Shown: positions 317 through 9,773 of the stretch, piece by piece
Layout: each line of letters starts with the position of its first letter
How positions within the stretch are numbered: the stretch's first letter is position 1
Assembly: GCA_022865355.1 (NCBI GenBank)
Contig: JALHST010000110.1
Location: forward strand, 1 to 35,436
Length of the DNA: 35,436 bases
From: Maribacter sp.
GTDB lineage: Bacteria; Bacteroidota; Bacteroidia; Flavobacteriales; Flavobacteriaceae
Reading direction: 5' to 3'
Program-made: the position numbers and the translations under genes
Notes under the pieces: model-generated
Told to the model about the DNA's origin: nothing
Seen by the model: the letters and a program-made list of their open reading frames with translations, nothing else
The model's database searches: none

Positions 317-402
317 ATCGGGTATGCTGCACACTCCTTGCAGGCTTGGAAGTTACCTTGGCAGAATTATCATATTTTGTTTATTTACCTCAATATTTCG
401 GG

Positions 403-1461
403 ATGGCCCTAAAAATAATCCTACCTCTTCTATTTTTTTCGACCGCAACGGCCTTATGCCAAACACAATTTAAAATTCGCACTTTTGCGTTTTACAATAT
501 CGAAAACCTCTTCGATACCGAAAACGATTCCCTGACATTTGATGACGACCGGACGCCAGAGGGAAAAGATCATTGGACACCGGAGCGGTTTCATCAAAAA
601 ATTACGAACATCGCCAAAGTTTTATCTGAAATCGGTGCCGATGTAACCCGAACATCCCCGGATCTTATAGGCTTGTGTGAGGTTGAAAATAGTGAGGTTC
701 TCGAATGTTTGGTAAATCATCCATATTTACAAGACAAGCATTATGGTATAATTCATTTCGATTCCCCCGACGAACGTGGCATCGATGTCGCACTTCTCTA
801 TAAAAAGGAGGCCTTTTTGCCAATTTTCTTTAGAAGTCACAGGCTGTTACTTTTCAATATTGAAGGGGAAAGGGATTTTACCAGGGATCAATTAGTCGTC
901 AGTGGACTACTCGATACTGAATATATTCATATTATCGTCAACCATTGGCCTTCGAGGAGTGGCGGAGAAGCACGCAGTAAACCGAATCGTCTGGCGGCGG
1001 CCCAATTGAACAAGCGAATTATAGATTCAATAACTGCGACAGATCCGGAATCGAAAATTATCGGGATGGGCGATTTAAATGATGACCCTATCAGTGATAG
1101 CCTTAAAAAGGTCTTGAAAACCAAAGGGAATAAACGCAGCCTAACTGAGAGCGACCTCTTCAATCCCATGGAAAAATTGTTCAAAAAAGGAGTGGGTACT
1201 TTGGCATATCGTGATCACTGGAACCTATTCGATCAGATTTTTATGACCGCGAATTTGGTCGATCCCAATTCACAGGAATATCGATTTTGGAAAGCCGGCA
1301 TCTTTAAGCCGCCCTATCTTGTTACCCAAAGCGGACCCTACAAGGGCTATCCCTTTAGAACCTATTCGGCAGGCAACTATACGGGTGGGTATAGCGATCA
1401 TTTTCCGGTATATATTTATTTAGTGAAAGCCGCTCCCGTCAAATCCAACATAAGAAATTGA
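403..1461 (+). CDS. Secreted endonuclease/exonuclease/phosphatase family protein
   Basis: A 352-residue protein of the DNase I-like metal-dependent phosphoesterase fold. The reading frame is open from 346, but the ATG at 403 is preferred because it begins a clean signal peptide (MALKIILPLLFF, cut near ALCQ). Fold motifs appear in the expected order: FYNIENLF, LCEVEN (metal-binding Glu), VNHWPSRSGGE (catalytic His), GDLNDDP (Asp/Asn) and SDHFPVYI (C-terminal Asp-His). Secreted members of this group in flavobacteria cleave nucleic acids or phosphodiesters; the exact substrate cannot be read from sequence. It faces a DUF1080 gene across a 127-base gap with no clear terminator. With the endonuclease I remnant and TonB receptor nearby it may belong to a nucleic-acid scavenging locus (inference). 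Confidence 0.88.
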   Translation: MALKIILPLLFFSTATALCQTQFKIRTFAFYNIENLFDTENDSLTFDDDRTPEGKDHWTPERFHQKITNIAKVLSEIGADVTRTSPDLIGLCEVENSEVLECLVNHPYLQDKHYGIIHFDSPDERGIDVALLYKKEAFLPIFFRSHRLLLFNIEGERDFTRDQLVVSGLLDTEYIHIIVNHWPSRSGGEARSKPNRLAAAQLNKRIIDSITATDPESKIIGMGDLNDDPISDSLKKVLKTKGNKRSLTESDLFNPMEKLFKKGVGTLAYRDHWNLFDQIFMTANLVDPNSQEYRFWKAGIFKPPYLVTQSGPYKGYPFRTYSAGNYTGGYSDHFPVYIYLVKAAPVKSNIRN

Positions 1462-1588
1462 AAAAACGAGTAGGGCGACCACGTGGGCCTCAGGAAGCAT
1501 TTTGCCAAGGCGAATCGATTGCACAGCCAGAAGCCCAATAAACATGTTGAAATGATTGTTTAAAAAGAGATACCATCCCTTTCGGAGT

Positions 1589-2185
1589 TCAATCCAGCAC
1601 CGTCAGTTTAATATCCTTCCACTTCACCTTTATGCCCCCCCCGTCATGTATCTGAAGCGCAATTGAGCCTTCCCCTGCCCCAATTTTTTCATCGGTCAGG
1701 GTGACCATTTCAACACCGTTCAGCCACGAAGTCAGCGTGTCGCCTACAACACGTATTTTCATATGGTTCCATTGCCCTTCTTTTAGTACGTCATCTTTTT
1801 CAGGTGATGGTTTTATGAGCCATCCACGGCCATACGATTCATAAACACCTCCGGTATCATGTCCTTTGGGGGCGACCTCTACCTGCCAGCCACTTACTTT
1901 CGTACCTTCTATGGTCGAGCGTATGAATACGCCACTATTGCCATCGGCTTCCTGTTTGAAATCAAGGTCAAGCTCAAAATTTTTGTAATGTTGATTGGTA
2001 GCAAAATAACCATATTGTTTGTCCGGACCACTTTCACAGACTAAGAGTCCGTCTTCTACATACCACTTTTCAGTACCATAAATGGTCCAACCCGTTAGGT
2101 CCTTTCCATTGAAGAGTGCCTTTTCTTGGGCGCTAATAACAAATGGCAAAATTACGATGGCAATCAGGAGAATTCTATTTTTCAT
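1589..2185 (-). CDS. Secreted DUF1080 / 3-keto-disaccharide hydrolase-type protein
   Basis: A 198-residue single-domain protein. A signal peptide (MKNRILLIAIVILPF, cut after SAQ) is followed directly by a DUF1080 concanavalin-like domain. The family pattern is visible: LFNGKDLTGW at residues 24-33, GYFATNQHYKNFELDLDF, GNSGVFIRS, KGHDTGGVYE, WNHMKIRVVGD, and LQIHDGGGIKVKWKDI at the C-terminus. Family members are linked to breakdown of 3-keto-glycosides and are abundant in Bacteroidota. The length is that of a lone domain. No sugar-oxidising partner gene is visible nearby, so the substrate is unknown. The gene stands apart, convergent with the nuclease gene and downstream of a four-helix membrane protein gene on the same strand. 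Confidence 0.85.
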   Translation of the reverse strand: MKNRILLIAIVILPFVISAQEKALFNGKDLTGWTIYGTEKWYVEDGLLVCESGPDKQYGYFATNQHYKNFELDLDFKQEADGNSGVFIRSTIEGTKVSGWQVEVAPKGHDTGGVYESYGRGWLIKPSPEKDDVLKEGQWNHMKIRVVGDTLTSWLNGVEMVTLTDEKIGAGEGSIALQIHDGGGIKVKWKDIKLTVLD

Positions 2186-2311
2186 TTTTTTGGTTTTAAT
2201 TTTATATTCATACTATTTAGGTGTTGATGTCCTTTGTTGCACATAGGCGAACCAAAGTAACTTAAGCCTACCTTTTTCCCTTGAAAAAGATGAGGGGTGT
2301 TCTTCGAGGCC

Positions 2312-2770
2312 TCAATTAAACCACTGCGTCCATGGGATTCTACTTAAAATGAGGATCAATCCGAGTCCGTAGAATATGGTGATGCTTTTAAATTTTTTAG
2401 TGCCCTCCATAAATTTCTTGTGCCGTGACCAGCCAATGGTTATGAATATCACCGCCAAGATATTAACAAACGGGTGTTCAACGGCCAATAACCTTGCAGG
2501 GGCGTTCAAACCTCCCATCCCCAAGGTTTGTACCGCTTTAAATCCGTTGGCGGAAACAAAATAGAGTATCAAGCCTATGAGCAATTGTAGATGGGCCAAA
2601 ATCAAGGCCATTAGACTAATTCTAAAATCTTTTTGTGGCAAAAACATTTTGTTGCTTAGCCAACCTATTAGGGCATTGGCTACCGCAAAAATAAGAATGG
2701 CCAAAACCGCATAGGCCAAATAGGAATGTAATTCAAGTATCCATTGGTACGCCAGTGAGTTGTCTTGCAT
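2312..2770 (-). CDS. Four-helix membrane protein, cytochrome b-like family
   Basis: A 152-residue integral membrane protein with four hydrophobic segments, roughly residues 14-36, 47-69, 98-115 and 128-145. Histidines lie in or beside helices: ELHSYLAY near residue 15, LAHLQLLIGLILYF near residue 60, and VEHPF near residue 98. This resembles small flavobacterial proteins often labelled cytochrome B, in which such histidines might bind heme. I recognise the family by pattern only, and heme binding is inference. The last residues (RIPWTQWFN) form a conserved-looking aromatic tail. It has no operon partner; the nuclease pseudogene on the same strand ends 73 bases upstream. A short inverted repeat (CTTTTTC/GAAAAAG, 2272-2289) lies just downstream but lacks a T-run. 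Confidence 0.65.
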   Translation of the reverse strand: MQDNSLAYQWILELHSYLAYAVLAILIFAVANALIGWLSNKMFLPQKDFRISLMALILAHLQLLIGLILYFVSANGFKAVQTLGMGGLNAPARLLAVEHPFVNILAVIFITIGWSRHKKFMEGTKKFKSITIFYGLGLILILSRIPWTQWFN

Positions 2771-2843
2771 AATTTATAGTTTAATTTTCCTAAAAGTAAT
2801 GAATTTTGGTTATACTAAAACCTTCATCATAAGGTCGCTCAAT

Positions 2844-3635
2844 TTACTCCCATTTATTTTCTGCCGCTGCACCTCCCCAAACGATGGTAGCCAAAAACGG
2901 ATTATCAATGAAGGGGTTTCTATTCCCCTGGGCAGATTCAATGACCCTATTGCGCTGTATTTCAAAGTCTGAAACGGGATCCGCAACATTCCATTGCAGA
3001 AATAACTCCAAACTGCCTACTTTTTCGAAAGTTTCCTGATATCGAATGTTCAAGTACAAGACCATTCTTGCGACATCGCCTCGCCAATCGTCACCTGGAT
3101 ACCATGAATTGCCATTGATCAATTTATAAGTTCCATTCCCTGCTGTGAAGGGATAATTAAGCCGTTCTTCATTTACGACAGCATCACAAACCCTTAAATG
3201 ATGAAGGTCACTGACCGCTTCCTCTGATGTGAGCCGGGATTGTGGATAAATGTGCTCGGTATTAAAGGTCTGGGGGGTATAGGGGTTATTTGTTGAAGTA
3301 TATTCTTGCCAAAACCTACTTTCCCCGGAATACATCAAAATGACATTTTCTGGATTGTCAACAGCTTCATCGGCAGCATAGAGGTAATCATGTCTTTGGC
3401 TATAATACAAAATGACTTGGTGCTTCTCCTTTGTCAATGTGGAAAGTGTTCGATAATTCAAATCGGCATCATCGGTAAACGAAATGTTCGCATAATAATA
3501 GTTCAGATCTGCTGGTATATTGAATGAAATCGTCTTCGAACTAGCGCTATCAACCGTGCTGACATTCAAGGAATTATCCTTACTTCAGGAAACGAAGAAC
3601 CCTCCTAGGACCATTAAAAATAATATTCTTTTCAT
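2844..3635 (-). pseudogene. Endonuclease I-family lipoprotein gene with TGA at the lipobox cysteine
   Basis: From the ATG at 3633-3635 the frame reads MKRILFLMVLGGFFVS, then TGA (3585-3587), then SKDNS and a 241-codon open frame ending at 2844. The stop sits exactly where a Bacteroidota lipoprotein would carry its lipidated Cys (FVS-C-SKD); one base change from TGC or TGT would give it. Downstream, the endonuclease I-type core is intact: RHDYLYA, FNTEHIYPQS (catalytic Glu-His), SDLHHLRVCDAVVNEERLNYPF split across metal-ligand positions, and GDDWRGDVARMVLY. Without the stop the protein would be 263 residues. A TTG at 3569 could restart translation but would lack a signal peptide, and the first internal ATG lies inside the domain. 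Nonsense mutation, readthrough or a base-call error are the options. It is separated by a terminator from the lipoprotein gene upstream. Confidence 0.8.
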
Positions 3636-3701
3636 AGGTAACCTCGTTGTCGAAAGATTCTTGGATACACTACTAAATGCACTAGGATACCAAAGAATAA
3701 A

Positions 3702-3739
3702 AAACCTTTCAGCAGTTGAGTAAAGTTGCTGAAAGGTTT
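3702..3739 (-). terminator. Rho-independent terminator of the lipoprotein/TonB receptor operon
   Basis: A 13-bp perfect stem (AAACCTTTCAGCA paired with TGCTGAAAGGTTT) with a 12-base loop, followed on the minus strand by a T-rich tract at 3690-3701. It lies 24 bases past the stop of the lipoprotein gene ending at 3763 and separates it from the nuclease pseudogene. Confidence 0.85.
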
Positions 3740-3762
3740 CGAATCGTATTAAATAATTCCTA

Positions 3763-5421
3763 TTAGTTAAGTACCCAAGCTCCCCCGGATTTAATTAAAC
3801 TGATATTTTCGAAACCAGCGGCCCCATTATAAATGGCATAGGTTATCACATATTTTTGACCTTCTGCGGCACCCGGATCTTTACTATCCAAAAGTATATT
3901 AAAGGCCTCTACAAGCATATCATCGCTCCAGTAGGCGGCATTTCCTTCCCTTCTGTCGAAATTACCATAATTTCCTGCACTTCCTGCCGGTCCTGGATAA
4001 GTACCTACCAAGGCATCAGCAATCAGTGTGTAATCGGAAGCGACCAAGGCATATTTTATGGTATTGTCAGGTACCCATACCCCATTATCAAAACCAAATT
4101 GCAGTTCCGTAGCGACGACCGATTGATTTCCAACCCAAACTGCATCTAGGAATTTGTATAGATTTCCACGTATTTGGGCACCACTAGAACTTGAATAATA
4201 ATCATAAATCACATATAATTCGTCTTCTTCCTGGGCATAGGGATATTTTATCCTTAAAAAATTGGGCAAATAGGCGTCAGGCGAAATCGAACTACTAAAG
4301 TTATTATATTGTCCTGGTTGTCCAGAGCCTGTGCCCATAGAATCAAAATCTGCGGAACTTAGGTAATAAACACCGGCAACCGGTTCCCAAGTACCACTTG
4401 TATATATATAGTAGTCTCCTTTCGAATTAGTAGCCCCGGAAATACCTTGGGCTTTTACAAGCACTTGATCGACTTCCCAAGTGGCCGCCTCGGCGTCGGT
4501 AGACTCATATTTGAAGGCTAGGTTCACCACTTGCCCCTCATAGGCCGAAAAATCATAGTTTTCAGACAGTACGAAATTAAAGTTGGTACCATCGGGGGTA
4601 GATGTCAAGACAATGGGATCCCACGTTGCCGTGGCTACATCGCCACTATAATCGGTAGAAACCAAAATTGAGAGTACGTTTAAATCGGTTGCATAGTTTA
4701 TTGCCTGATTAATTTGAAAATTCAAGTCGGTTTCACCACTTAGGTCGATCTGTGGGGATACCAACCAATCTTCGTTGGCGAGTGCAGCACCCGAATAACC
4801 TGACATTTTAGCATATTCGACACCTCCAAAGGAACTTGCCTCCCAAAATTGATCACCGACTACGCTGATCGCTGTCCAATCATCTAGGCTTCCATTAAAA
4901 TTTGCCTCATAAATATTCGATAAGCCGATAACCGGGTTTTCAAAATACTGCTTGTATTTGGCCAATACCACTTGGCCTTCTGTCGCAGCTGTAATGTTTG
5001 CGGCCAATATATCCGAAGTATAATCGGCCGGATTGGCATCTGGATAGAATCCGTATGCATCGCTTCCCGCACTGGCATAATCGCCATTGGTAAGTGAATA
5101 GATATCAGCGACCGTAAAATCGCTAACCCCTTCTGCAGTACCAACGTACAGGTCAAAGCCGATCAAGGCGGATGAACCTTGTCCCCAAACGGGATATTTT
5201 TCCTTTAAATAAGGCGGGAGCATGGTCTTGGCATCGTCCAAGGAGCTAAAATTGCCAAAATCGAGCCCCAAGGCCGTATAGTCTTCATCGGTTAAGGTGA
5301 ACACCGCATCTCCGGAAATTACCTCTTTTTGGGCATCCAACTCTGTGTAAATGTCGTCCAATGGATTACAGGCCGTAAACGTTAGGCCGAGTATCGCGAA
5401 TAAATAAAAATACTTTTTCAT
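3763..5421 (-). CDS. Choice-of-anchor-J domain lipoprotein, partner of a TonB-dependent receptor
   Basis: A 552-residue lipoprotein: signal MKKYFYLFAILGL with lipobox TFTAC and Cys18. Residues about 165-325 look like a choice-of-anchor-J beta-sandwich: IYEANFNGSLDDW, FWEASSF, ANEDWLVSPQIDLSG, NLAFKYESTD and TWEVDQVLVKA. Around it are weakly repeated modules of the form (Y/F)xL(T/S)xxDY followed by a YP or a glycine-rich stretch and an aromatic strand: residues about 41-95, 107-135, 352-410 and 456-532 (for example LPPYLKEKYP against LPNFLRIKYP). It lies 17 bases downstream of a TonB-dependent receptor gene, the usual arrangement of a receptor with its surface ligand-binding lipoprotein, although it is not SusD-like. 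The ligand is unknown. A strong terminator follows. Confidence 0.82.
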   Translation of the reverse strand: MKKYFYLFAILGLTFTACNPLDDIYTELDAQKEVISGDAVFTLTDEDYTALGLDFGNFSSLDDAKTMLPPYLKEKYPVWGQGSSALIGFDLYVGTAEGVSDFTVADIYSLTNGDYASAGSDAYGFYPDANPADYTSDILAANITAATEGQVVLAKYKQYFENPVIGLSNIYEANFNGSLDDWTAISVVGDQFWEASSFGGVEYAKMSGYSGAALANEDWLVSPQIDLSGETDLNFQINQAINYATDLNVLSILVSTDYSGDVATATWDPIVLTSTPDGTNFNFVLSENYDFSAYEGQVVNLAFKYESTDAEAATWEVDQVLVKAQGISGATNSKGDYYIYTSGTWEPVAGVYYLSSADFDSMGTGSGQPGQYNNFSSSISPDAYLPNFLRIKYPYAQEEDELYVIYDYYSSSSGAQIRGNLYKFLDAVWVGNQSVVATELQFGFDNGVWVPDNTIKYALVASDYTLIADALVGTYPGPAGSAGNYGNFDRREGNAAYWSDDMLVEAFNILLDSKDPGAAEGQKYVITYAIYNGAAGFENISLIKSGGAWVLN

Positions 5422-5438
5422 TTTTACTATTTTTTTAA

Positions 5439-7967
5439 TTAAAATGTAATTTTTGCGCCCAGGCTGAACGTCCTACCGAAGCCATACCAAACCAAGGCAC
5501 TCAAGGCATCATGGCTGCCACCGTCTAGTGCATCGGCAATATATTCGGTATTGAACACATTGTTCATGCGGGCAATAATGGTAGCGTCAAAGCCGCCCAT
5601 GTCGAACCCATGACTAATACCGGCATCCAAGAGGCCATACGACGGGGCTTTCCAGGATTGAGGTATTCCTTGTGAAGTTCTACCGGTCGGTTCAAAATCG
5701 GCATAATAATTATCATAGTAATTGTAATCCAAAAGTAAACGGGTACGATCGAAAAACTCATAATTCAAGCCCAAGGCCATAGTGGTTTGTGCAGCATCGC
5801 CCACTTTTAAGCCATCGATAAATATGTTGATAGGGTTTCCTACAGGTTGGTTGGCATTATCATATACTTGCGCATTTTCAACGTTGTTCGTCCATTTCCA
5901 ATTTCCCAATGACAACATACCTGTCAATGAAAGTTTATTAATAGGCCGATAAACAAAATCAACCTCTATACCTTGGTGAAGGGCATTTACCCCCAATAGG
6001 TTTACAAAGTAATCGACGCCTCCGACCGAAAAATTGTCGGTGAAGGTACGGTCGTTCCAAGCAGTCCTATAAATATTGACATTGGCTGATAACACGTTAC
6101 TTCGGTACCCATAGCCTATTTCAGTACTAAATATTTTTTCATTTGCGGCATCGGCATTGATATGTTCATTATCAAAATTAAGGAAGACCGCATCAAAACC
6201 GGGTGCTCTTTCAAGATAGCCAATATTGACAAAAACATTGTTATTTGCATCCAAGTTGTAGTTCGCACCCCCTTTTATACCATAACTGGGGAAATTGTAA
6301 CGATCGGTTTCCTGTAAAGGGTCACTATTCAAATAAAGAAAATAATCGATTCGTCGGTACGAAGTATTTGCAAAATTGGCGGCTACAAAAGCCGATAATT
6401 TATTCTTAGTATATTCCAATTGGGTGAACAATCCTTGCCAGCCAACTTTTCCTTCGTCGTGATAATCCCTTTTATCGCCTACCTTAATAGTTCTATTGGG
6501 ATTATTGATATCACTGTTATCGATGACATATGCGCCACCCAAAAGATCGGTCAATTCAGAAAAATGTTTCCCGGTATAGGTGCGTAAATCAACTCCTGCC
6601 ATAAGAGCAAGGTTATCGGTTAGATCGTTCTTATAGGTAGACAAGACGCCATACCACTCATGGTCATTCCTTGAAGCCCTTAAATAGGCTGCCGCTTCAA
6701 GGCCTTGGGCCCCGCGGTCTCTATTGATGGACACGATATTATCAAGATCGACGGGCTGATCGTCGCCCCCTAATCTAACATTGAACAAGCTATAATCTCC
6801 TGCGGTACCACCACCCCCCCCGGTTCCTGAAGAGGCATAGACTGCAGTGGATAAAAATGACTTATCATTGATATTCCAATAATGGTTCAGGGAAGTTTGC
6901 GGCTTAAAATAGAAATTGTCTTCAATATTGACCACTTGTCCATTTTTTATACCCCAATCAGGATTAAATTTTATACCGCTTTCAGCGTCCCGATATTTTG
7001 CTATGGAGCTTCTATTTTGTCGTTGTCCGTGGCGTTGGGGTGCCCCAAATGAACTTAAGGATATCGTATGATGGTCGTTGATTCGCTTTGAAATATTTAC
7101 GAAATAGTTATATCCCTCAAATTCAGTGCCATCCACATAGCCATTTCCTTTTGTTTTGGAAGCGGAAACAGTAGCCGCAAAGCCATTGTCCATGAGCCCG
7201 GTCGAAAGTGTAAATCCATATTTTTGATACCCATCATTCCCCACTCCGGTATAGACATTTCCACCTTTTTCAACATCGGTCGTTTTGGTCAGAATATTAA
7301 TGGTTCCACCAACCGATGGCACAGCCACTTTGGAAGCTCCCAAACCTCTTTGCACCTGCATCGAACTGGTCACATCGGCCAAACCGGCCCAATTACTCCA
7401 ATATACCCGACCATTTTCCATGTCGTTAACGGGGACCCCATTGATCATCACGGCAACGTTTACCGAGTTGAAGCCCCTTATGTTGATCCGGCCATCCCCA
7501 AAGCCACCGCCAGATTTAGTGGCATATACACCTGGTGTTGATTTCAAAATCTCTGGAAATTCCTGTGTCCCTAATTTCAATTCGATGTCCGCAGCCTTAA
7601 CCGTTGACACGGCAACCGGTGTTTGACGGTCGACCGCTATAGAGGAGATTAGGACAACCCCTTCCAATTCCTGTGAATCGGATTGCAAGCTTATGGTACC
7701 CAGATTACCTACCTTGGTATAATTGACGTTTTGGGTCGTATACCCAATATATGATATCACCAAAGTACCCGTATTACTAGAAACTTCAATACTGAAATTG
7801 CCATCAAAGTTCGTGGCGACCCCAGTGGTAGTTCCTTCGACCACTATGCTAGCCCCGGGTAATGGGTCTCCCGAATCGCCATCCAAGACTGTACCAGTCA
7901 GGGTTCCCTGTGAAAATACAAATGCGGAGCATAATAGCGCCGCCAAAACAAAGTAAATTTTTCTCAT
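5439..7967 (-). CDS. TonB-dependent outer-membrane receptor with CarboxypepD_reg-like domain
   Basis: An 842-residue outer-membrane transporter. Signal peptide 1-19 (VFSQ end), a CarboxypepD_reg-like/DUF4480 domain at about 21-100 (GTVLDGDSGDPLPGA, TNFDGNFSI, VISYIGYT), a plug at about 105-235 (ELKLGTQEFPEILKSTPGVY, INIRGFNSVNVAVMINGVPV, GGTINILTK) and a 22-strand-type barrel ending in a C-terminal phenylalanine (SLGAKITF). It imports a substrate using TonB energy; the substrate is not evident. The gene starts a two-gene unit with the choice-of-anchor-J lipoprotein. The pgi gene ends 168 bases upstream on the same strand; the spacer carries a near-match -7 box (CACTTTTG) about 35 bases before the ATG, so the pair probably has its own promoter. 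Confidence 0.93.
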   Translation of the reverse strand: MRKIYFVLAALLCSAFVFSQGTLTGTVLDGDSGDPLPGASIVVEGTTTGVATNFDGNFSIEVSSNTGTLVISYIGYTTQNVNYTKVGNLGTISLQSDSQELEGVVLISSIAVDRQTPVAVSTVKAADIELKLGTQEFPEILKSTPGVYATKSGGGFGDGRINIRGFNSVNVAVMINGVPVNDMENGRVYWSNWAGLADVTSSMQVQRGLGASKVAVPSVGGTINILTKTTDVEKGGNVYTGVGNDGYQKYGFTLSTGLMDNGFAATVSASKTKGNGYVDGTEFEGYNYFVNISKRINDHHTISLSSFGAPQRHGQRQNRSSIAKYRDAESGIKFNPDWGIKNGQVVNIEDNFYFKPQTSLNHYWNINDKSFLSTAVYASSGTGGGGGTAGDYSLFNVRLGGDDQPVDLDNIVSINRDRGAQGLEAAAYLRASRNDHEWYGVLSTYKNDLTDNLALMAGVDLRTYTGKHFSELTDLLGGAYVIDNSDINNPNRTIKVGDKRDYHDEGKVGWQGLFTQLEYTKNKLSAFVAANFANTSYRRIDYFLYLNSDPLQETDRYNFPSYGIKGGANYNLDANNNVFVNIGYLERAPGFDAVFLNFDNEHINADAANEKIFSTEIGYGYRSNVLSANVNIYRTAWNDRTFTDNFSVGGVDYFVNLLGVNALHQGIEVDFVYRPINKLSLTGMLSLGNWKWTNNVENAQVYDNANQPVGNPINIFIDGLKVGDAAQTTMALGLNYEFFDRTRLLLDYNYYDNYYADFEPTGRTSQGIPQSWKAPSYGLLDAGISHGFDMGGFDATIIARMNNVFNTEYIADALDGGSHDALSALVWYGFGRTFSLGAKITF

Positions 7968-8135: not shown

Positions 8136-9773
8136 TTAACTCTTAAATGCCTGCAAGAGTCGCATTGTGGATCCATCATGATCGGCGATTTCTGAATTTT
8201 GAAGATCTTTCAAAATAGTGCCAGCCAGGTGTTTTCCGAGCTCTACGCCCCATTGGTCATAACTGAAGATATTCCAGATTACGCCTTGGACGAAAATTTT
8301 ATGCTCGTATAAGGCGATTAGTGCTCCTAAACTTTTCGGGGTAAGTTGTTCTATCAAAATTGTATTGGTAGGTTTGTTTCCTTCAAATACTTTAAATGGA
8401 AGTAATTTCTGAATTTGTTCCTCCGACAATTTTAGGCCTTCCAGTTCTTTGTAAACCTCCTCGGGGGTTTTACCATTCATTAAAGCCTCGGTCTGTGCAA
8501 AAAAATTGGCCATTAATTTGTTGTGATGTTCGACATCGCCGTGCAATGACTTTTTAAAACCTATAAAATCAACGGGGATCAACTTGGTGCCCTGGTGGAT
8601 CAACTGAAAAAAAGCGTGTTGGGAGTTTGTTCCCGGTTCGCCCCAAATTATAGTGCCGGTCTGATAGTCGACCCGCTGGCCGCTGCGGTCAACGCTTTTG
8701 CCATTACTTTCCATAATGCCCTGTTGCAAATAGGCCGAGAACCTACTAAGATATTGGGAATACGGTATAATTGCCTCTGTTTCGGCATTGTAGAAGTTAT
8801 TATACCAAATGCTAAGAAGGGCCAGGACTACTGGAATATTTTTATCGAATTCGGCGGTCCTAAAATGTTCGTCCATTTGTTGGGCTCCGCTTAACATGGT
8901 ATCAAAATTGTCATATCCTACGGCCAAGGCAATCGATAGGCCGACGGCGCTCCATAATGAAAATCTTCCCCCGACCCAGTCCCACATGGGGAATACGTTT
9001 TCTGCAGCGATTCCGAATTCGGCGATTTTTTTTGTGTTTGTAGAGACCGCAGCAAAATGGTCGGCAATATCTTTGTGCTGTGCCTGCTTTAAGAACCATT
9101 TTTTAATGGTTGTCGCATTGGTGAGCGTTTCTTGTGTCGTAAACGTTTTCGAAACGATCACGAATAAGGTAGTTTCGGGATTCAATTCCTGAAGTACCTC
9201 ATGAACTAGATCTCCGTCGACATTACTTATGAAATGGATCTTTAGGTGATTTTTATAGAACTGTAGGGCCTTTATGACCATTTCAGGGCCGAGATCGGAA
9301 CCTCCGATACCGATATTGACCACATCGGTAAAGGGTTTTCCCGTATAGCCTTTTTTCTTTCCTGAAATAATGGCCTCCGAAAAAGTCTTGATATGCTCTT
9401 TTACCTCGTATACCTCCGGAATTACATTTTCCCCATCAACAAGTACGGTTGCCGTTTTTTTGGCACGCAGGGCCGTATGCTGTACCGCCCGGTTTTCGGT
9501 CACATTGATACGATCCCCGCTAAAATATTTTTGAACGGCATCCTTCAAATCGACTTCATCGGCCAACTGAAGCAATAAGGCAAGGGTTTCCTTGGTGATC
9601 CTATTTTTTGAAAAGTCGACTAGAAAATCGTTCCATTGCAAACTAAAGGCGATCGCTCTGTTCGGATCGGCAGCAAAAAGATCCCTTAGGTGATTTCCTT
9701 TGCTGTTTTCATAATTCTTGCGTAGGTTTTTCCATGCTTTGGTCGATGTTGGATCAATGCTCTGTAATGCCAT
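8136..9773 (-). CDS. pgi: Glucose-6-phosphate isomerase
   Basis: A 545-residue full-length PGI interconverting glucose-6-phosphate and fructose-6-phosphate in the cytoplasm. Family signatures are clear: [17 protein letters not shown], and near the C-terminus [13 protein letters not shown] with the conserved Gln and Lys. The phosphate-binding [13 protein letters not shown] and [13 protein letters not shown] segments and the active-site Glu region [11 protein letters not shown] are present. Its ATG lies inside the end of the upstream M23 peptidase gene (20-base overlap), so the two are probably translated in a coupled way. It is the last gene of a four-gene minus-strand run starting at the DUF3108 gene. 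No clear terminator is seen after its stop. Confidence 0.97.

Follow-up and report, generated by a model that had tools for sequence, protein, structure and literature searches.

The locus and its neighborhood

The window, meaning the whole stretch of DNA analyzed here, comprises 35,436 nucleotides of contig JALHST010000110.1 from Maribacter sp. Positions 346-7967 hold a conserved block made up of a receptor, a choice-of-anchor-J lipoprotein and a nuclease, often accompanied by a small protein and an opposite-strand exo/endonuclease-phosphatase. The receptor, a TonB-dependent receptor with a carboxypeptidase-regulatory-like domain recognized through family matches, occupies 5439..7967 on the minus strand. 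Downstream of it, at 3763..5421 (minus strand), family matches identify a choice-of-anchor J lipoprotein whose own lipobox cysteine is encoded by TGT; its match to DUF5017 is weak, below the Pfam cut-off, and it has no match to DUF5689. The nuclease gene follows on the same strand. Beyond it lie a protein of 152 residues (2312..2770, minus strand), picked out by neighborhood comparison and without a match in searches of Pfam and NCBIfam, and an endonuclease/exonuclease/phosphatase-family gene (346..1461, plus strand), assigned by its family match, which the neighborhoods compared often share, near the nuclease and on the opposite strand.

The gap that separates the nuclease gene from the lipoprotein gene upstream contains a perfect 13-bp inverted repeat with a T-run (3702..3739, minus strand), a putative terminator that probably ends the upstream transcript. 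The scan for consensus terminators does not list this element because its loop limit is 8 and the loop here is 12.

The arrangement recurs in relatives. In 19 of 20 relatives' neighborhoods the nuclease is preceded, as in the window, by the TonB-dependent receptor and by a gene matching the choice-of-anchor-J lipoprotein; phosphoglucose isomerase and an M23 peptidase stand before the receptor/lipoprotein pair in 18 of the 20, and the 152-residue protein is found just 3' of the nuclease in 18. Among ten further loci, six show the receptor and lipoprotein matches and the other four the nuclease only. The window nuclease is therefore in its usual orthologous place and is not a stray copy.

An endonuclease I frame interrupted at the lipobox

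Frame translation from a minus-strand ATG at 3635 gives MKRILFLMVLGGFFVS, then TGA, then SKDNS. The initial annotation had described a lipoprotein signal, a stop exactly at the cysteine and an otherwise intact endonuclease I frame, and each of these points was confirmed. MKRILFLMVLGGFFVS is a standard lipoprotein signal: the signal peptide, as read from the frame, runs for 16 codons from its ATG start and ends one residue short of the lipid-carrying cysteine (3588..3635, minus strand). The TGA at 3585..3587 (minus strand) takes the position expected for the lipobox cysteine, as judged from the frame and from comparison with homologs. It is followed in the same frame by 246 open codons, and the terminal stop lies at 2844-2846 on the minus strand; codons and stop together make up the endonuclease I body (2844..3584, minus strand), assigned by its PF04231 match. 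An in-frame TTG at 3569, 15 bases 3' of the TGA, would give 241 codons. The one alternative upstream frame that was read in detail has no signal peptide of its own and was set aside. The site lies 3.6 kb from the first base of the contig, away from its very end.

The body scores 110.4 bits for Pfam model Endonuclease_1 (PF04231), whose cut-off is 25, and 107.2 bits in a profile search of the draft genome, where the window gene is the only match to the family. Matches to sequences in PDB have E-values from 6e-8 to 2e-7. At the 40 alignment columns that are invariant in 60 homologs, the window gene shows no departure, nor does it at columns conserved in 95% or more; the test covered 60 of 61 homologous places, with one broken copy (G310b) left out. 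When each homolog was left out in turn and treated in the same manner, 9 of the 60 departed at one or two columns, some of them perhaps through early alignment ends. About 5% of single-base changes in the nuclease frame give a stop, and the absence of a second stop sets a loose bound, because up to about 57 neutral substitutions pass at the 5% level. There are 121 other single-base changes in the nuclease frame that make a stop; a random first nonsense change would fall at this codon about 1 time in 122, a figure that is descriptive only because the position was chosen after the fact. An undecayed body is expected both from a very recent change and from an error.

The lipobox cysteine in homologs

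A family search at E <= 1e-60 covered 397 genomes and found a homolog in 56 of them, this one included, at 61 places besides the window. The initial annotation had expected a cysteine at the site and proposed an alignment as a check. The N-termini bear it out, with a lipobox cysteine in 54 of the 61 places (50 called by script, and those of G217, G373, G322 and G314 by eye; in G322 an arginine stands directly before the cysteine). Six others (G047, G156, G389, G369b, G069b and G149) have a signal peptide without a lipobox cysteine, five of them reading ...AQLTP, and represent a differently exported paralog. The last, G310b, is a second copy in genome G310 and is broken, with three stops in the matched stretch. 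All 60 unbroken homologs start upstream with a signal peptide, and in none of their N-termini was a stop found at the signal-peptide junction.

The homolog nearest to the window gene has 67-68% identity to it, and named homologs from a separate search come mostly from flavobacteria. In most of the closest homologs some 200-320 residues separate the signal peptide from the nuclease, while a minority, for example G069, G043, G036, G190 and G406, are compact like the window gene. A paralogous endonuclease I gene in G369 (contig C11, L109 1247-1249) has a lone internal TGA in a frame that is otherwise open.

Searches for recoding and read-through

The features by which a bacterial selenoprotein is recognized, SelA, SelB and tRNA-Sec together with a SECIS-like hairpin after the UGA, were not found. 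In profile searches of this genome SelA had no match, and nothing scored above the cut-off for SelB, where the best frame, of 399 residues, reached 186 bits against 242.25; being about the size of EF-Tu, it is taken to be EF-Tu. No tRNA-Sec scored above its cut-off (best 41.3 against 47), and the best-scoring locus is a tRNA-Ser. No SECIS-like hairpin was seen, the 61-base stretch after the stop folding much like its shuffles (z -0.25). The tRNA survey yielded 30 matches among 150 scored of 210 first-look candidates, so that tRNAs elsewhere could be missed; ARAGORN reported no UCA anticodon at 26 of the 30 tRNA loci, and the other four lie inside scanned loci.

A strict signal-peptide scan was applied to 54 of 61 sequences of this genome (674,014 bases; the other seven were excluded because they contain runs of N). 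It recorded 36 cysteines, one TGG and a single stop, the window TGA, at the position of the lipobox cysteine. The same strict scan of 20 stretches from relatives (374,519 bases) gave 49 cysteines, one TGG and no stop. A loose scan of 250 kb of this genome, two masked contigs included, returned the window site and one more TGA candidate. This second site, in L124 (contig C5) at 1353 on the minus strand, is a weaker case of a signal peptide followed by TGA, with 153 open codons behind it; it appears in the loose scan only and fails the strict one.

Suppression or opal read-through, which the initial annotation had listed among its explanations, thus failed to find support: SelA is lacking, SelB and tRNA-Sec stay below cut-off, no UCA anticodon turned up among the tRNAs examined, and a single lipobox stop stands against 36 cysteines. 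A programmed reading of the window TGA is not supported, and there is no sign of a program. In the paper titles and abstract openings surveyed, nothing describes a lipobox cysteine replaced by a stop, or selenocysteine as the anchor of a lipoprotein.

Two adjacent tRNA-Cys genes with anticodon GCA occur in L133 (contig C14) at 4169-4241 and 4359-4430. The gene at 4169-4241 is the divergent one: at position 33, just before GCA, it carries C where T is usual. Counterparts with C33 beside a canonical tRNA-Cys were seen in G055, G056 and G032, that is, in 3 of the 19 relatives' loci fetched; their anticodon stems vary in sequence and keep five pairs, G-T counted.

Interior stops elsewhere in the genome

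Interior stops were scanned in 54 unmasked sequences of this genome and, for comparison, in the 20 relatives' stretches (374,519 bases) and 32 other loci (256,616 bases). This genome gave 14 candidates. Two were judged clear (L122 and L204), one (L192) is antisense to a transporter frame, and the other 11 look by eye like gene junctions or antisense frames. The controls gave 11 candidates, 10 in relatives' stretches and one in another locus; by eye these look like gene junctions, none was judged clear, and for six the same junction turns up in more than one genome.

In L122 (contig C3) an in-frame TAG at 9688-9690 splits a conserved cyclophilin-FKBP peptidyl-prolyl isomerase, the fragments of which match Pro_isomerase and FKBP_C. 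The gene has open frames of 337-411 codons in the 11 relatives fetched. The site was found in 8 of the 11, where the codon aligned to the TAG encodes tyrosine in three, the two closest relatives included, and isoleucine or valine in five. L204 (contig C46), a short contig, begins with a remnant of a zinc-binding dehydrogenase (2-541) that contains two in-frame stops.

Nature of the stop codon

We lean slightly toward reading the TGA as an ordinary, non-programmed single-base nonsense change, real and young, in a gene that is the genome's sole endonuclease I match. Before the change, the gene would have encoded a lipoprotein nuclease whose signal peptide suggests an envelope protein that cut DNA outside the cytoplasm. 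With the stop in place, translation would end after the 16-residue signal peptide, so that the nuclease would not be exported and most likely would not be made. The presence of this base in the living cell, the youth of the change, the location of the product and its DNA substrate are inferred; the rest of the frame would then be intact because the change is young. Losses within the family elsewhere, namely the G369 paralog with its one internal TGA and the second copy in G310 with its three stops, argue for a real loss. Chance is the likeliest reason for the stop to fall on the lipid-anchor codon.

A consensus or base-call error in the assembly, with a living strain that makes a normal lipoprotein endonuclease I, is a real possibility that falls somewhat short of probable. 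The assembly is a draft of 319 contigs with a contamination estimate of 2.61, and the undecayed body suits an error as well as it suits a young change. The second isolated stop, the TAG in the cyclophilin-FKBP gene, and the dehydrogenase frame with its two stops point the same way, as does the same scan's failure to yield any case that we considered clear across 631 kb of other genomes. Against this, two clear cases versus none over near-equal lengths would arise by chance about 1 time in 4; the controls come from neighborhoods of intact nuclease genes and are hence biased; the interior-stop scan has low sensitivity and depends in part on judgment by eye; single-stop genes occur in real genomes too; and 24 of the 26 window frames scanned have a Pfam match. 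The count of two versus none is weak, and fits consensus errors and a normal load of young nonsense alleles alike. Because the draft is in 319 contigs and holds at least one other isolated nonsense codon in a conserved gene, both a young allele and a consensus error must be counted as likely, and the initial annotation, which had proposed that the change is recent or a base-call error, stands on this point. The other readings fare less well. Continued expression in a changed form, by re-initiation at TTG 3569 to give a cytoplasmic nuclease or by low-level read-through of the TGA to give a little exported protein, is improbable. The in-frame TTG 15 bases downstream and the intact body would allow it, and the initial annotation's unexported product from that codon is possible to this extent, but nothing points to it and the 60 unbroken homologs start upstream with a signal peptide. 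A DNase in the cytoplasm would be harmful. There is also no hairpin signal, no suppressor tRNA among the tRNAs examined, and only one lipobox stop versus 36 lipobox cysteines. Low-level decoding of the TGA as cysteine, with the C33 tRNA-Cys as one conceivable reader, to yield a throttled surface nuclease near DNA-uptake-like genes, is very unlikely. Cysteine at UGA has a precedent of a different kind in some selC* tRNA-Cys with a UCA anticodon, as described in PMC7609411. Of the three other genomes with a C33 tRNA only G056 is among the nuclease matches, and because the G056 nuclease has cysteine at the lipobox as usual, the C33 tRNA-Cys is unlikely to bear on the TGA. Selenocysteine at the lipid-anchor position (3585-3587) deserves almost no credence. 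In its favor, selenocysteine is encoded by TGA and relatives have cysteine here. Against it, SelA has no match, SelB and tRNA-Sec fall short of their cut-offs, and the RNA behind the stop folds much as its shuffled versions do; as far as the near-complete draft reaches, the selA/selB/selC set was not found and the reading is rejected.

If the stop is real, as in our preferred reading of a young nonsense change, the strain is left without its single identified endonuclease I. The conserved block poses a testable question: whether an envelope nuclease feeds or limits DNA uptake in Flavobacteriaceae, or serves nutrition.

Comparison with known systems

The genome contains a ComEC-type frame of 677 codons. 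Dns of Vibrio cholerae belongs to the endonuclease I family. This extracellular nuclease is described as opposing DNA uptake and lowering transformation (PMC3380833). In Riemerella anatipestifer the adjacent genes RA0C_RS04915 and RA0C_RS04920 are described as required for natural transformation (PMC8459023). Their domain types, a carboxypeptidase-regulatory-like outer-membrane protein and a DUF5017/choice-of-anchor J protein, match those of the two genes upstream of the window nuclease, a likeness by domain type only; the window lipoprotein differs from the Riemerella pair in lacking the DUF5689 match and in having a DUF5017 score below the Pfam cut-off. In the main text of PMC8459023 the word "endonuclease" occurs only twice, both times for restriction enzymes. 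These links from the nuclease block to DNA uptake may serve as leads only.

As a member of the endonuclease I family (PF04231; solved members 1oup, 1ouo, 2g7e, 2vnd and 2pu3), the window gene keeps the residues that are invariant in homologs, including N-T-E-H-x-x-P. The homologs are mostly lipoproteins, many with 200-320 residues before the nuclease, whereas the window copy is compact and has its stop at the lipobox cysteine. Measured against a bacterial lipoprotein, its signal peptide has the basic start and the hydrophobic stretch, but the cysteine at the lipobox is replaced by TGA. Like a nonsense pseudogene, it has a premature stop within a frame that is open in homologs. It resembles a single-nonsense pseudogene or allele in having one in-frame stop, no frameshift seen and the rest intact, and differs from one in that the stop falls on the lipid-anchor codon. 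An isolated nonsense codon in an otherwise intact gene is an ordinary finding, and this one looks like a base-call error or a recent mutation rather than a hidden code.
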